From assembly GCA_003669605.1 (NCBI GenBank), contig QWOP01000031.1:1-64000 (forward strand): a DNA stretch of 64,000 nt, given 5' to 3'. The position numbers and the translations under genes are program-made. Below the pieces are notes generated by a model, which had not been told where the DNA came from, ran no database searches, and saw only the letters and a program-made list of their open reading frames with translations. Below are positions 39,622 through 46,921 of the stretch, piece by piece. The first letter of the stretch is position 1. Each line of letters begins with the position of its first letter. This DNA comes from Planctomycetota bacterium (GTDB taxonomy: Bacteria; Planctomycetota; Planctomycetia; Pirellulales; UBA1268).

Positions 39622-39933
39622 ATGACCCGCCAGATGACCATCCAGGAATTCCAGTCGCTGATCCGTGCCATGTACCACGACAAGGACGCCGCCCGGGGAG
39701 TCGAGGGGACGTTCATGTGGCTGACGGAGGAGATCGGTGAATTGGCGACGGCGCTGCGCAGTGGAACCAAGGAGGAGATTGCGCTTGAATTCGCCGACGT
39801 GCTCGCCTGGCTGGCGACGATTGCCAACGTCGTTGATGTCGATCTCCAGGCTGCCGTGGCCAGGAAGTACGGTGCAGGCTGCCCGGGTTGCGGTCGTCTG
39901 GCCTGCATCTGTTCGGATGCGGAGAAGCCATGA
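39622..39933 (+). CDS. MazG-like nucleotide pyrophosphohydrolase with Cys cluster
   Basis: 103 residues from the ATG at 39622 (MTRQMTIQEF); GTG at 39607 or ATG at 39634 are alternatives. The MazG-type helices hold EEIGELATAL (E-E-x-x-E) and LEFADVLAWLA (E-x-x-D), the four-acid metal site for hydrolysis of NTPs. A short C-terminal tail has CPGCGRLACIC, five-residue Cys spacing that could bind zinc; this tail is unusual for MazG. The 3' end overlaps the next gene by 4 nt. The substrate is unknown. Confidence 0.82.
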   Translation: MTRQMTIQEFQSLIRAMYHDKDAARGVEGTFMWLTEEIGELATALRSGTKEEIALEFADVLAWLATIANVVDVDLQAAVARKYGAGCPGCGRLACICSDAEKP

Positions 39934-42164
39934 AGGAGGCGCTGCGTCCGACGCTCTGGAGATGCCTGGGCAGATGTCTGGGGAGAGGGCGGGTGTCTCC
40001 CATAAGGAGCCTCCTTTGCCAGATGTGCATGCCTGGTTTGTGGGCAGTTGTGTGGCTGTTGACGATCGGTCCGGCGGCGTCGCGGGGAGACGCCGAATGG
40101 ACGTCGCGAGTCGGATTCGACGGCGTCTACCGCTGCGGATCATGGACCCCGCTGGTTCTCGAATCAACGCAGTCTGAAGCGGCCGTGGTGACTGTCTGGG
40201 TGGAGGATCCGGATGGCCAGTTGGTCGGCTCGCCGGCTGCCGAGGTCGTGACCCTCGACGATGGCACGCGACAGGCCCGGGTGCGGGTGCGATTCGGTCG
40301 TCCAGCGGGCCGCGTGCTGGTGGAAGACGATTCCCAGGGCCTCACCGCGCTGCAACTGCAGCCGCCGCTGGAGTCGACTGAGCGGGTGCTGTTGGTGGTC
40401 GGCGACCTGCCCAGCGCTGAGAGAGCCTCGCGCTTGCTGCAGCGGGAAGACGGGGCGCGGCTCCGGGTCGTGACCGTCGCCGATCCGGCCCGGCTTGGAT
40501 CCGACGGCCTCGATTATGACGGTGCCGACGCGATCATCGTCTGCGGGAGAACCGTGTCGGCGGCTCCCCCCACTGCCGCCGCTCTGCGGGGGATGGACGC
40601 CTGGGTGCGGCGTGGTGGCCGGCTGGTGTTCATCGCCGGCGCTTCGGCCGTACAGCCAGCCCTCTCCGCCTCCGCCGCTGCCGCTTGGCTGCCGGGGCCT
40701 CCCGGGAAGCCAGGCAGCGTGGCCCGGATGGTGCCGCTGCGACGCGCGGCTGCAATCGAGACCTACTGCAAGGCGGGGCGGCCGCTCGACCGGGGTGCAC
40801 TCGCCGGGCTGGAGGTGCCGCTGCTTGCCGATCCTGCCGGCATCGACGGGGCCATCGAGGCCTGGGAATGCACTTCCCCTACCGATCTCCCTCTGGTCGT
40901 CCGCCGGGCCCACGGTTTCGGATCGGTCACCTGGATCGGTCTCGACATCGATCAGGGGGCGTTTCGCAACTGGCAGGGCACCGATTCACTGCTGGTAGAA
41001 CTGCTCGGAGGACGGCCGGCGAAGGCGGGCAGGGCAGGGGAGGTGAGCCGGCAGACCCTCGATTTAGGGGGGCAATTGCGGTTGGCAGTCGACCGCTTTC
41101 CTGGCGTGGTGGCCGTGCCTTTCGAGATCATCGCCGGGATGGCGCTCCTCTACATCGGCTGCCTCTATCCGCTCGACTGGTGGCTCGTCTCCCGCGGCGG
41201 GGGGCGACCGCGACTGGCTTGGCTGACTCTCCCCTTGCTGGTGGCGGCATTCACCGGCCTGGCTTGGTGGACGGCCGGGCGCTGGAAGGGAAACCGGTGG
41301 CAGGCCAGTCGGGCCGACATCGTCGACATCGACATCGCCGCCGGGATCGCCCGGGGGACATCCTTCGCCGGGGTCTGGTCGCCGGACAACGCCCTCCTCG
41401 ACATCTCCGTCACTGTGCCGCAGGGCTACGCTGCTCGGCCAGGCGACTCGGCCGTGTCGTGGTACGGGATCTCCGGCCGTGGCATCGGCGCCACCGATGC
41501 CTCCACCGCCCATCCGTCGCTGGCGGCAGATTCCTACGGCTATCAAGGCTCTGCTGAACGCTTGGCTGGCGTGCCGATTGCGGCCTCATCCAGCCGGCTC
41601 TTTGAAGCGGAATGGATGGCCGATGAAGTGGCAAAAGCAGTCGTGTCGAGCCTGACTGCCGATGTTCAAGGCACGCTCCGCGGTTCGCTCGAGAGCCGCC
41701 TCCCGTTCCCCCTTGAACAGTGCGGGCTGCTCCATGCCGGCTGGTACTACGAGATCGGTACTTTGGCACCCAGCGGGAGATTTGTTCCCGCAGCCGGCAA
41801 GGGGCCACGGACGCTCGCCGCGGCGCTGACCCGCAGCGCGAGTGTCTTCGATCGGGTGCGGACCGAACGCTGGAGCCTCGAGGAAACCGACATCGATCGG
41901 ATTCTCGAGATGGCTGGCTTCCACGCAGCCGCCGGCGGCGAGGCATACACCTCTCTCGAGGCCGGAAGGCTGGGGCGGATCGACCTTTCGCCGCTGCTGC
42001 AGATCGACCGGGCCGTGCTTGTCGGTCGTGGACCGTCAGGCACCGTGTGGGGCCGCTCGGCAACCGCGGAAGACGGCCGGACAATTCCTGACCAGTTCAT
42101 TCCATCCGCCGACACGTCCACCCTCTGGCGGATCGTCATTCCCCTGGATCATCGCAGGCCATGA
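39930..42164 (+). CDS. Large exported membrane protein, unknown function
   Basis: 744 residues. A signal or anchor segment (LWAVVWLLTIGPAASRGD) is at about 37-53, then a beta-rich periplasmic region of 330 residues. Two transmembrane helices are at about 392-421 (VPFEIIAGMALLYIGCLYPL and flank) and 429-449, separated by a short loop, and a second beta-rich region follows. The start ATG overlaps the MazG-like stop, and the stop overlaps the ABC ATPase start (42161-42164), so the three genes form one transcript. It probably works with the ATPase. The architecture resembles proteins next to ABC ATPases in other planctomycetes, but I do not recognise a named family. Confidence 0.72.
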   Translation: MKEALRPTLWRCLGRCLGRGRVSPIRSLLCQMCMPGLWAVVWLLTIGPAASRGDAEWTSRVGFDGVYRCGSWTPLVLESTQSEAAVVTVWVEDPDGQLVGSPAAEVVTLDDGTRQARVRVRFGRPAGRVLVEDDSQGLTALQLQPPLESTERVLLVVGDLPSAERASRLLQREDGARLRVVTVADPARLGSDGLDYDGADAIIVCGRTVSAAPPTAAALRGMDAWVRRGGRLVFIAGASAVQPALSASAAAAWLPGPPGKPGSVARMVPLRRAAAIETYCKAGRPLDRGALAGLEVPLLADPAGIDGAIEAWECTSPTDLPLVVRRAHGFGSVTWIGLDIDQGAFRNWQGTDSLLVELLGGRPAKAGRAGEVSRQTLDLGGQLRLAVDRFPGVVAVPFEIIAGMALLYIGCLYPLDWWLVSRGGGRPRLAWLTLPLLVAAFTGLAWWTAGRWKGNRWQASRADIVDIDIAAGIARGTSFAGVWSPDNALLDISVTVPQGYAARPGDSAVSWYGISGRGIGATDASTAHPSLAADSYGYQGSAERLAGVPIAASSSRLFEAEWMADEVAKAVVSSLTADVQGTLRGSLESRLPFPLEQCGLLHAGWYYEIGTLAPSGRFVPAAGKGPRTLAAALTRSASVFDRVRTERWSLEETDIDRILEMAGFHAAAGGEAYTSLEAGRLGRIDLSPLLQIDRAVLVGRGPSGTVWGRSATAEDGRTIPDQFIPSADTSTLWRIVIPLDHRRP

Positions 42165-43272: not shown

Positions 43273-44193
43273 ATGGCGATCTTGGGGCAAGGGACCGGGG
43301 CCAACAGAAGGTGGGCATCCTGGTGGCAGCGTGCTCTGGCCAGCACCCTGGGGATGATTCCTGTTGCGTGTCTGCTGGTGCTTGGAACACTCGTTCCGCC
43401 GCCGCCGGAAGTCTGGGCACAGCCTGGTTCAGCCCCTCCTCGGCCCCGGCAGGCCAACAAGACCCGGGCCACTCCCCCGCAAACGCCGGCGGCTCCGCAA
43501 ACGCCGGCGCTTCCCACCCCGCCATCAGCCGGTCTCGACACCCCGAAGAGCACGCTGGGCTACGCCCTGGGCCTCATCAAGGGGAGCACGATCGCGGAGG
43601 AATTCAAGGCGCAGAAGGCGCCGTTTGACTACGCCGCGTATGCCCAGGGATTCTCCGACGCCATGAACGGTGTGCCGGCCCGTCTCCCCGAAGAACAGAT
43701 CGCCAGTGCCTTGCGGGAGTTCTGGGGACAGATGGAGAAGGAGCAGGAGGTATTCCGCCGCGAGATGGTGGAGCGCGGAAAGGTCCATCAGGAGAAGGGA
43801 GCCGAATTCCTCGCAGCCAATGCCACCAGGAAAGGAGTCATCAAACTCCCCAGTGGGTTGCAGTACGAAGTCCTCACCGCAGGCAGCGGTCCCAAGCCCA
43901 AGCCCACCGACATCGTCTCCACCCAGTACCGCGGCACGCACATCGATGGCCAGACGTTCGACGCCACCAATGCGGAGCAGCCTTCGGCGAAGTTTGCTGT
44001 CGAGGAGGCGGTGCCTGGATGGCAGGAGGCCTTGCCCCTGATGGCGGTGGGCTCGCGGTGGCGCTTGGTGTTGCCGACGGAATTGGCCTACGGCGAGGAG
44101 GGATTGCCGCCGTTGATCGAGCCCAACGAAGTCCTCGTCTACGAACTGAAACTGCTCCGGATTGAACCGCCTCGTCGGGCGGGGGGCGATTGA
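43273..44193 (+). CDS. Exported FKBP-type peptidyl-prolyl isomerase (FkpA/Mip type)
   Basis: 306 residues from the ATG at 43273, with GGAGG 8 nt upstream. Signal peptide at about 18-50, then a Pro-rich linker and a helical dimerisation segment (about 85-180) as in Mip and FkpA. The FKBP fold begins near GLQYEVLTAGSGPKP and contains V-S-T-Q-Y-R-G, F-D-A, GWQEALPLM-A-V-G and W-R-L-V-L-P-T-E-L-A-Y-G. It acts on proline bonds of proteins in the periplasm or envelope. The next gene, also exported, starts 72 nt downstream; they are probably one folding-and-repair unit. Confidence 0.92.
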   Translation: MAILGQGTGANRRWASWWQRALASTLGMIPVACLLVLGTLVPPPPEVWAQPGSAPPRPRQANKTRATPPQTPAAPQTPALPTPPSAGLDTPKSTLGYALGLIKGSTIAEEFKAQKAPFDYAAYAQGFSDAMNGVPARLPEEQIASALREFWGQMEKEQEVFRREMVERGKVHQEKGAEFLAANATRKGVIKLPSGLQYEVLTAGSGPKPKPTDIVSTQYRGTHIDGQTFDATNAEQPSAKFAVEEAVPGWQEALPLMAVGSRWRLVLPTELAYGEEGLPPLIEPNEVLVYELKLLRIEPPRRAGGD

Positions 44194-44264
44194 TCGCCAG
44201 CGGCAAAACTCGCCCGGTGCAGTGGGGCAGGGGGGTGGTCCAAGGCTGGCGGGGAGCGATGGAC

Positions 44265-45524
44265 ATGAAACGGGTGCACCGGGACGGGGGACGACGGATG
44301 ACCGCTCCATGGCGCGGGATGACGATAGCGATGCTGGTGTGGACCACCGTGGTGGCTGCGGCCCCTCCGGAGCCACTCGCCGAACGGATGGCGGCGCTCC
44401 GCGAGCGGATGGTCAGGGACGACATCGCCGCCGGAGGGGTTGTCGACCCGCGAATCCTCGAAAGCATGCGAGGCACACCCCGTCACGAATTCGTGCCGCC
44501 GCCGCAGCGGCATCTGGCCTACGTCGACATGGCGCTGCCGATCGGTGAGAAGCAGACTATTTCCGGGCCGTTCGTCGTGGCCTATATGACCGAGCGACTG
44601 CAGCCGAAGGCCACCGATCGTGTGCTGGAGATCGGCACTGGCACAGGGTACCAGGCGGCAGTGCTTTCGCCCTTGGTGAAGATGGTGTATTCGATCGAGA
44701 TCAACAGGCCGTTGGGAGAGAAGGCGGCGAAACTCCTGACACGGTTGGGCTACAGGAATGTCGTGACGCGGATCGGCGATGGTTTCCAGGGATGGGCTGA
44801 ACACGCCCCCTTCGACAAGATCATCGTCACCTGCTCCCCCGAGGAGATCCCCACGCCGCTGGTCGAGCAACTTGCCGAAGGGGGAATGATGGTCATCCCG
44901 GTCGGCGAACGCTACGAGCAGATGCTCGTCCTCCTCACCAAACGGGGAGGGGAGATGATCCACGAGTCGCTTGTTCCGAGCTTGTTCGTGCCGATGACCG
45001 GAACCGCCGAGGACGCCCGGCAGGTTCAGCCCGACGGAACCCGGCCGCAACTGCAAAACAGCAGTTTTGAAGACCTGCTGCCCGACACGTCTGTCCCCAC
45101 TGCCTGGTACTACGGTCGGCAGATGGAGGTCGTCGAGGGAATCGACGCTCCGCAGGGGCAGCGCTACTTGAAATTGGAGAATCACCAGCCGGGGCGGCCA
45201 GCGCAACTGTACCAGGGGTTCCCCGTCGATGGCCGAGAGATCGCTAGGCTCAAGGTGTCGCTGTCGGTGCGTGGGGAGGGGATCCGCGAAGCGGCGTCCG
45301 CCGAAGAGACACCCTCATTGGGGGTGCAGTATTTCGATGAGCGCCGCAGTCGCTCGTCGCGGGCCATGCTCCCGATCGGAAAGGGGACGTTTCCGTGGCG
45401 GAGGGTCGAAGGCGCGCTCACGGTGCCCCCCTGGGCACGCGAAGGGATCCTGTTGGTGGGAATGCTCGGGGCGACCGGCAGGCTCGAGGCGGATGACGTC
45501 CGGATCGAGGGCGTCAGAAGGTGA
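44265..45524 (+). CDS. pcm: Exported protein-L-isoaspartate O-methyltransferase with C-terminal beta domain
   Basis: 419 residues from the ATG at 44265, chosen because GGGGAG sits 8 nt before it; an ATG at 44259 is also possible. A signal peptide covers about 12-33. The methyltransferase domain (about 38-245) has VDMALPIGEKQTISGPF and the SAM-binding LEIGTGTGYQAAVL, both diagnostic for PIMT. The C-terminal 155 residues (from about NSSFED, 265) look like a jelly-roll carbohydrate-binding domain. PIMT repairs isoaspartyl damage, normally in the cytosol; export and the added domain are unusual. It follows the exported FKBP gene directly. Confidence 0.88.
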   Translation: MKRVHRDGGRRMTAPWRGMTIAMLVWTTVVAAAPPEPLAERMAALRERMVRDDIAAGGVVDPRILESMRGTPRHEFVPPPQRHLAYVDMALPIGEKQTISGPFVVAYMTERLQPKATDRVLEIGTGTGYQAAVLSPLVKMVYSIEINRPLGEKAAKLLTRLGYRNVVTRIGDGFQGWAEHAPFDKIIVTCSPEEIPTPLVEQLAEGGMMVIPVGERYEQMLVLLTKRGGEMIHESLVPSLFVPMTGTAEDARQVQPDGTRPQLQNSSFEDLLPDTSVPTAWYYGRQMEVVEGIDAPQGQRYLKLENHQPGRPAQLYQGFPVDGREIARLKVSLSVRGEGIREAASAEETPSLGVQYFDERRSRSSRAMLPIGKGTFPWRRVEGALTVPPWAREGILLVGMLGATGRLEADDVRIEGVRR

Positions 45525-45763: not shown

Positions 45764-46921
45764 ATGTCGGTCCTTCGTCATTGCTGCAAGTTTGCAGGGG
45801 TTGTCACTTTTCTCGCGGTCGTGGCGACAGCCTGCGACGCGCATGCCGGCTGGCATCACCGTTACGGGTCCTCCGGGGGCTCCGGTGGCTCGTCAGGAGG
45901 CAGTTCGGGTGGCTCGTCAGGAGGCAGTTCGGGCGGTAGCTCGGGCGGCTCCTACGGCGGTTCGTCCGGTGGCAGTGCCGGCGGCTACGGTGCCGGTGGT
46001 TCTTCGGGCGGGAGTTACGGCTCCTACGGGTCGTATGGTTCTGCCGGATCACAGGGTGGGTTTCTTTCCCACCATGCCGCCAAGAAGGCGATGCGGAGTT
46101 ATCGTCACGGCTCGAGCGGCGGTTCGTCGGGCGGCAGCTCGGGCGGTTCGTCCGGCGGCAGCTCCGGTGGCTCCTACGGTGGCGGCAGTTCGGGCGGCTC
46201 CTACGGTGGCGGTAGTTACGGTGGCGGTAGTTACGGTGGTTCCTCGTCCCCGGCTTACTCCAGCGGTGTCGACTATTCCTCGGGGTATTCAAGCGGCTAT
46301 CCGGTTGAGACCCAGCGGGTCATCAGCGAGTCGCCGATCTACGGCGGCAGCGAGGTGATCGGTGTTCCGTCGACCTCCAACGAAGCCGCGGTCCCGGCCG
46401 ACGGTGCGATGCTCGTCGTCAACCTCCCGGTCGATGCTGAGGTGTTCGTCAACGGTGCCAAGACCTCTGCCACCGGTGCCACCCGCCGTTATGTGTCCCG
46501 CGGACTGGCCAAGGACAAGGAATATGAGTTCGTCGTCAAGATGGTTGTCGATCGTGACGGCACCCCCCGCGAGCAGACCAAGACGGTCACGCTCTCGGCC
46601 GGTGGCCGTTCGAACGTCTCCTTCGACAGCGTTGTCGCCACCCCGAAGACCAGCCTGACGCTCCACGTCCCCGCTGACGCGAAAGTCTGGCTGGCCGGCA
46701 ATGAGACGTCGTCGAGCGGCGCGACCCGCCTCTTCGAGACGACCAACCTCAAGGGGGGCCAGACTTGGAAGAACTACGAGATCCGTGTCGCGACGATGGT
46801 CGACGGCAAGGAGCAGGTTGTTTCGAAGACCCTCGACTTGGTCGCCGGCGGAACGGTCGAACTGACCCTCGACCCGGCCCAGCGGACTGCCTCGGCTGAC
46901 GCCCAGGTCTCCGTCCGCTGA
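45764..46921 (+). CDS. Exported Ser/Gly-rich protein with two TIGR03000 domains
   Basis: 385 residues from the ATG at 45764, with AAGGGAGA upstream. A signal peptide ends near DAHAGWHH. Residues about 34-165 are Ser-Gly-Gly and Tyr-Gly-Gly repeats, flexible and probably cell-wall linked. Two tandem TIGR03000 domains follow, each with D/N-A-x-V-x-V-N-G-x-x-T-x-x-x-G-x-T-R-x-F spacing (ADAEVFVNGAKTS and ADAKVWLAGNETS type). TIGR03000 is a planctomycete-specific domain of unknown role. A strong terminator follows directly. The repeat DNA (45865-46250) is low in complexity and may vary in length. Confidence 0.9.
   Translation: MSVLRHCCKFAGVVTFLAVVATACDAHAGWHHRYGSSGGSGGSSGGSSGGSSGGSSGGSSGGSYGGSSGGSAGGYGAGGSSGGSYGSYGSYGSAGSQGGFLSHHAAKKAMRSYRHGSSGGSSGGSSGGSSGGSSGGSYGGGSSGGSYGGGSYGGGSYGGSSSPAYSSGVDYSSGYSSGYPVETQRVISESPIYGGSEVIGVPSTSNEAAVPADGAMLVVNLPVDAEVFVNGAKTSATGATRRYVSRGLAKDKEYEFVVKMVVDRDGTPREQTKTVTLSAGGRSNVSFDSVVATPKTSLTLHVPADAKVWLAGNETSSSGATRLFETTNLKGGQTWKNYEIRVATMVDGKEQVVSKTLDLVAGGTVELTLDPAQRTASADAQVSVR

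Follow-up and report, generated by a model that had tools for sequence, protein, structure and literature searches.

Isoaspartate damage builds up in ageing proteins, and the enzyme that acts on it, protein-L-isoaspartate O-methyltransferase (PIMT), is normally intracellular, in the cytosol where SAM is made; outside cells, SAM is unstable. We know of no SAM-based repair of exported proteins in bacteria. The locus described here lies in a 64,000-nucleotide stretch of planctomycete DNA (the window) and encodes a PIMT that begins with a signal peptide, preceded by a peptidyl-prolyl isomerase that also carries one. It raises the question of whether this PIMT is exported and, if so, how it could find SAM and what it could do outside the inner membrane. 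The features of the locus are as follows.

43273–44193, + strand: exported FKBP-type peptidyl-prolyl isomerase of 306 residues, with FKBP_N and FKBP_C domains in the FkpA/Mip layout (Pfam PF01346 and PF00254).
43273–43422, + strand: FKBP signal peptide, residues ~1–50, ending in VWA before Q, assigned by sequence reading; the FKBPs of relatives likewise start with signal peptides.
44259–45524, + strand: exported PIMT with a C-terminal domain, 421 residues, alternative start at 44265 (PF01135, TIGR00080 and NF001453, above cut-offs).
44259–44363, + strand: PIMT signal peptide, residues ~1–35, with a hydrophobic segment at 20–36, conserved in relatives.
44397–45014, + strand: PIMT catalytic domain, residues ~47–252 (VIA-align Z of 31.4 to E. 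coli PIMT, 3lbf, 1.7 Å over 205 residues).
44553–44564, + strand: QTIS, residues 99–102, substrate/active-site motif of PIMT, assigned by residue conservation.
44622–44654, + strand: SAM-binding motif I, VLEIGTGTGYQ, residues 122–132; E124, G126, T127, G128, G130, Y131 and Q132 are invariant in 52 long forms.
44829–44843, + strand: TCSPE, residues 191–195, a signature of the long exported form that all 52 long forms keep unchanged; Ala is found at 192 in all sampled cytosolic forms.
45042–45521, + strand: CBM16/CBM4-like β-sandwich, residues 262–421 (~160 residues), from a domain model, its VIA-align superimposition on 2zew and a sequence match to 8ag9.

The PIMT matches PF01135 with an E value of 3.9e-58 (197 bits against a cut-off of 20.3) over residues 49–249, and it exceeds the NCBIfam cut-offs of both TIGR00080 (211 bits against 159) and NF001453 (226 against 188). 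Its stop codon lies at 45524; at the other end, the alternative ATG at 44265 (MKRVH...) has a better Shine-Dalgarno spacing, with GGGAG at 8 nt, than the start at 44259. No sigma-70-like promoter was found in the stretch, and terminator-like sites are no commoner than chance. The best model of the whole protein has a mean pLDDT of 89. The PIMT-typical SAM motif I and the LPIGxxQTIS substrate motif are both present, and within QTIS the residues Q99, T100 and I101 are invariant in 52 long forms, with S102 kept in at least 90% of them. A column comparison of exported and cytosolic PIMTs showed that both retain the SAM motif, QTIS and other residues typical of the whole family, S102 being invariant in the tree-set samples of either kind, and that the two are set apart by fixed exchanges (IEI in place of IER, H76 in place of E), together with TCSPE in the long form. 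As the residues of the SAM and substrate motifs are invariant, SAM binding appears to be under selection in the exported PIMTs. The substrate of the long form may differ, because TCSPE replaces the cytosolic Ala in a loop near the substrate.

The signal peptide of the PIMT is composed of an n-region KR...RR...R, a hydrophobic stretch, MTIAMLVWTTVVAAA, and then PPEP, with the same layout from either start. Signal peptides were called by a hydrophobicity rule of our own and by eye; in its strict form, the rule requires an uncharged 11-residue window with a mean hydropathy of at least 1.75 behind a net positive start. The long relatives are 80 loci from public genomes, ~47–81% identical and nearly all from Planctomycetota MAGs. 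They carry the signal peptide as well, with N-termini that diverge in sequence and keep the layout: 74 of the 81 long forms, window included, pass the strict rule and the other seven show a signal by eye. By comparison, none of the 19 short second PIMTs from the same order passes, nor does any of them possess an extra C-terminal domain. A wrong start codon or a frame accident was rejected since signal peptides recur in the 80 relatives, and conservation in such divergent sequences, together with absence from 19/19 short copies, rules out a chance export signal. The preliminary description of the locus, which gave signal peptides to both proteins, was confirmed for the two of them; in the FKBP, the signal reads as NRR, a hydrophobic core and VWA followed by Q. 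A conserved twin-arginine motif was not found in the relatives, and Tat export carrying bound SAM along was rejected, as a Tat-like motif occurs in just one of the 80; such co-export is unlikely and would support at most one turnover even if real.

Ancestry was examined with a quick maximum-likelihood tree of 133 catalytic domains, from which the signal and C-terminal columns were excluded. It divides into a side with 48 cytosolic PIMTs and a side that holds every exported one, with 10 cytosolic forms interspersed; the long exported form makes up one clade with a support of 100. For the cytosolic group, the tree needs 6 label changes, where shuffling gives a mean of 43. When all exported rows were constrained together, the likelihood exceeded that of the free quick search by 49.7 (p-AU 0.905), and the resulting clade takes in the plasmid-borne forms of Microvirga, Phyllobacterium and Paraburkholderia. 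A single exported lineage is thus compatible with the quick-tree data, short of proof. The exported form represents an ancient branch of the PIMT family, conserved within Planctomycetota.

One PIMT was found in the window's own genome, an 84%-complete assembly; a hidden second, cytosolic copy was sought and not found, the four other PF01135 matches (20–33 bits) resembling other methyltransferases. In 35 other genomes of the family, a single PIMT match was found in 32 (two of them cut by contig ends) and none in three, absences that are weakened by MAG incompleteness. Genomes from other families of the order mostly encode one long exported and one short cytosolic PIMT, with the long form alone in G041, G054 and G058 (two of them single-contig) and the short one alone in G037 and G056. 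For the phylum, PF01135 was sought in 244 genomes and 90 strong matches were read, 30 chosen by the tool and 60 picked by hand to spread families: the same signal-peptide reading classed 56 as exported, 33 as cytosolic and one as unclear. Long exported forms also occur elsewhere in the class, and short exported ones, many of them bearing a lipoprotein cysteine, in other classes. Outside the phylum, in a proteobacterial sample made up of plasmids only, signal peptides were found on PIMTs of Microvirga ossetica, Phyllobacterium, Sinorhizobium chiapasense and Paraburkholderia hospita.

The C-terminal domain, described beforehand as jelly-roll-like, indeed proved to be a predicted β-sandwich of the carbohydrate-binding type. 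Folded alone, it reaches a mean pLDDT of 96.5, and the model superimposes on CBM16-1 (2zew) with a VIA-align Z of 16.1 (2.7 Å over 138 residues), on a hyaluronan-binding module with a Z of 16.4 and on CBM4 with a Z of ~14; Foldseek matched it to 2zex (E 1.6e-7). Sequence support is thin: the sole profile match is to the N-terminal region of the endoglucanase 8ag9 (E 4.8e-4), and Pfam gave none. The domain has invariant residues of its own, W283, Y285, R287, Q319, D324 and W380. We regard it as CBM-like and its sugar binding as putative, a shared fold being no proof of binding. Its presence throughout the 80 relatives is partly by construction, because these came ranked by whole-length similarity, which the phylum sample did not. 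Stand-alone exported copies of the domain were seen in two genomes (L240, 1005–2048, − strand; L241, 288–1748, + strand), one behind a signal peptide and one lipobox- or lipoprotein-like. Four cytosolic PIMTs (L182, L210, L223 and L224) carry a different C-terminal extension of ~220–235 residues.

The FKBP starts with an ATG 6 nt 3' of GGAGG, and both of its domains exceed the Pfam cut-offs (PF01346, E 7.6e-19; PF00254, E 3.9e-20), with scores below the curated NCBIfam cut-offs of NF008602 (129.6 bits against 198) and NF008150 (108.8 against 215). It is one of two FKBP_C matches in its genome. The preliminary description had suggested that the two proteins may form one folding-and-repair unit, and the tandem, same-strand arrangement with a short gap and two export signals stands, recurring in 31 of 40 close loci, window included. 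The pair is nevertheless absent from all 41 more distant long-PIMT loci, exported PIMTs occur throughout the phylum without the FKBP, and three other genes of the close group, those for the ABC protein, for the large protein that precedes it and for the Ser-Gly protein that follows the PIMT, are about as conserved as the FKBP. Since the other genes of the block are similarly conserved on both sides, the adjacency may be plain synteny. We therefore hold a joint unit to be unlikely; the FKBP probably serves the same compartment as the PIMT and need not work with it. Two proteins of this neighbourhood attract attention in themselves. That at 45764–46921 of the window is exported, has long SGG/SYGG repeats and two similar C-terminal repeats, shows no clear Pfam match and adjoins the PIMT in 23 of 31 close loci. 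The other, at 39888–42164, is a 758-residue protein with membrane segments and no Pfam match, whose position upstream of the gene for the ABC ATPase is conserved in 26 of 31 close loci.

The source of SAM outside the inner membrane was seen as a puzzle from the outset, and the question is a real one: the exported forms all keep an invariant SAM site, which argues that the exported PIMT meets SAM. Given that the exported form is an old and conserved branch, SAM must be available beyond the inner membrane unless the exported PIMT serves some unforeseen function there. In the wider order, no neighbour able to supply SAM is conserved in more than 7 of 30 loci, and no signal peptide was found on other SAM methyltransferases of the own genome among the loci that could be read. 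On plasmids of Microvirga, Phyllobacterium and Paraburkholderia, the gene for the exported PIMT is followed immediately downstream by one for a large spermidine-synthase-like "SAM-dependent methyltransferase" (L238, 1318–3669, − strand; L239, 2477–4951, − strand; L236, 1257–1651). The two of these that were read are polytopic, with 12–14 predicted membrane segments; this neighbour is a possible partner of the exported PIMT and a lead on the SAM question. A polytopic relative is also encoded elsewhere in the window's own genome. As for the compartment, the lumen of the inner-membrane invaginations had been suggested as an alternative to the periplasm. The invaginations enlarge the planctomycete periplasm; the reconstruction of one planctomycete shows lumen and periplasm to be continuous, and there is then no need to posit a compartment apart from the periplasm (PMC8567305). 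The titles and abstracts listed from the open-access literature on exported or periplasmic PIMT, periplasmic SAM methylation and planctomycete secretomes yielded no description of an exported PIMT, and the main text of the Tuwongella subcellular proteome does not mention isoaspartate.

The best explanation, which we favour with modest confidence, is a Sec-exported, glycan-anchored periplasmic PIMT that repairs isoaspartate. The enzyme would be secreted by Sec and fold in the enlarged periplasm, where the CBM-like domain could hold it to an envelope or extracellular glycan. The catalytic domain would then methylate L-isoaspartyl residues of aged exported proteins, restarting their conversion to aspartate, with SAM presumably reaching the space outside the inner membrane through leak, lysis or some transporter. 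The broader proposal, that Planctomycetota and some Proteobacteria methylate proteins with SAM outside the inner membrane, probably so as to repair isoaspartate, and do so by means of a dedicated, anciently split exported PIMT subfamily, is made tentatively and falls somewhat short of probable.

A possible, though rather doubtful, alternative is that the exported enzyme is active with SAM on a changed substrate, the carboxyls of surface proteins or another envelope acid, leaving a regulatory or structural mark in place of isoaspartate repair. The invariant TCSPE loop and the fixed exchanges at IEI and H76 would fit such a change, as would the fusion to a CBM-like domain that has invariant W, Y, R, Q and D residues itself and the separate cytosolic PIMT retained in most other families of the order; yet the protein retains QTIS along with nearly every residue that cytosolic PIMTs conserve, the fold matches isoaspartyl enzymes very closely and the exchanged residues are small for small. 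We consider it quite improbable that the protein never meets SAM and survives as a binding or chaperone-like protein recognising damaged peptides. This would agree with the binding role suggested by the CBM-like domain, with the instability of SAM outside cells and with our finding no supply of it, but a whole SAM site invariant across very divergent exported sequences is hard to explain without SAM binding.

An uncleaved hydrophobic start that keeps the PIMT at work on the cytosolic face of the membrane would remove the SAM puzzle altogether; it had been put forward as the condition that would overturn export, and we judge it very improbable. The cleavage site in the window is not ideal (AAA then PP), and some short exported relatives, such as L141 and L150, have long hydrophobic segments. 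Against this, positive charges precede the segment, which by the positive-inside rule puts the remainder of the protein outside, AxA followed by Q, A, D, E or S is found in 33 of the 80 long relatives, many short forms have lipoprotein cysteines, and the PIMT is fused to a CBM-like domain. Periplasmic repair of isoaspartate is the reading that we retain. The broader proposal, if true, would imply a pool of SAM in the periplasm and, for the window's family, a repair of damage confined to the outside of the cytosol. A conserved exported PIMT with an intact SAM site makes two questions testable, whether the periplasm contains SAM and whether it is a site of repair for exported proteins, and the signal peptide, IEI and TCSPE are simple markers for finding the subfamily elsewhere.

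When compared with cytosolic PIMT/Pcm (E. coli 3lbf; PF01135, TIGR00080), the window's PIMT is 44% identical, superimposes with the Z of 31.4 given above and shares SAM motif I and QTIS. It differs by its signal peptide and C-terminal domain, by Ile instead of Arg after the motif Glu and by Cys instead of Ala in the TCSPE loop. The PIMT of Thermotoga (1dl5, 317 residues) and PCMTD1 (in 9oma) likewise have a PIMT domain followed by an extra C-terminal part, which is CBM-like in the window's protein; these two are presumably not exported. Modules of the CBM16, CBM4 and CBM61 type, usually fused to glycoside hydrolases, share with related β-sandwiches the fold of the C-terminal domain (Z of 14–16 over ~137–145 residues) at 13–20% identity only. 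The FKBP resembles the periplasmic FkpA/Mip type in its FKBP_N and FKBP_C domains and signal peptide, and differs by a proline-rich linker and by scores below the cut-offs of the named subfamilies. Extracellular PIMT activity in animals, where the enzyme is released from damaged cells, offers the likeness of a PIMT outside the cell with an uncertain source of SAM; unlike the planctomycete enzyme, it has no dedicated signal peptide.
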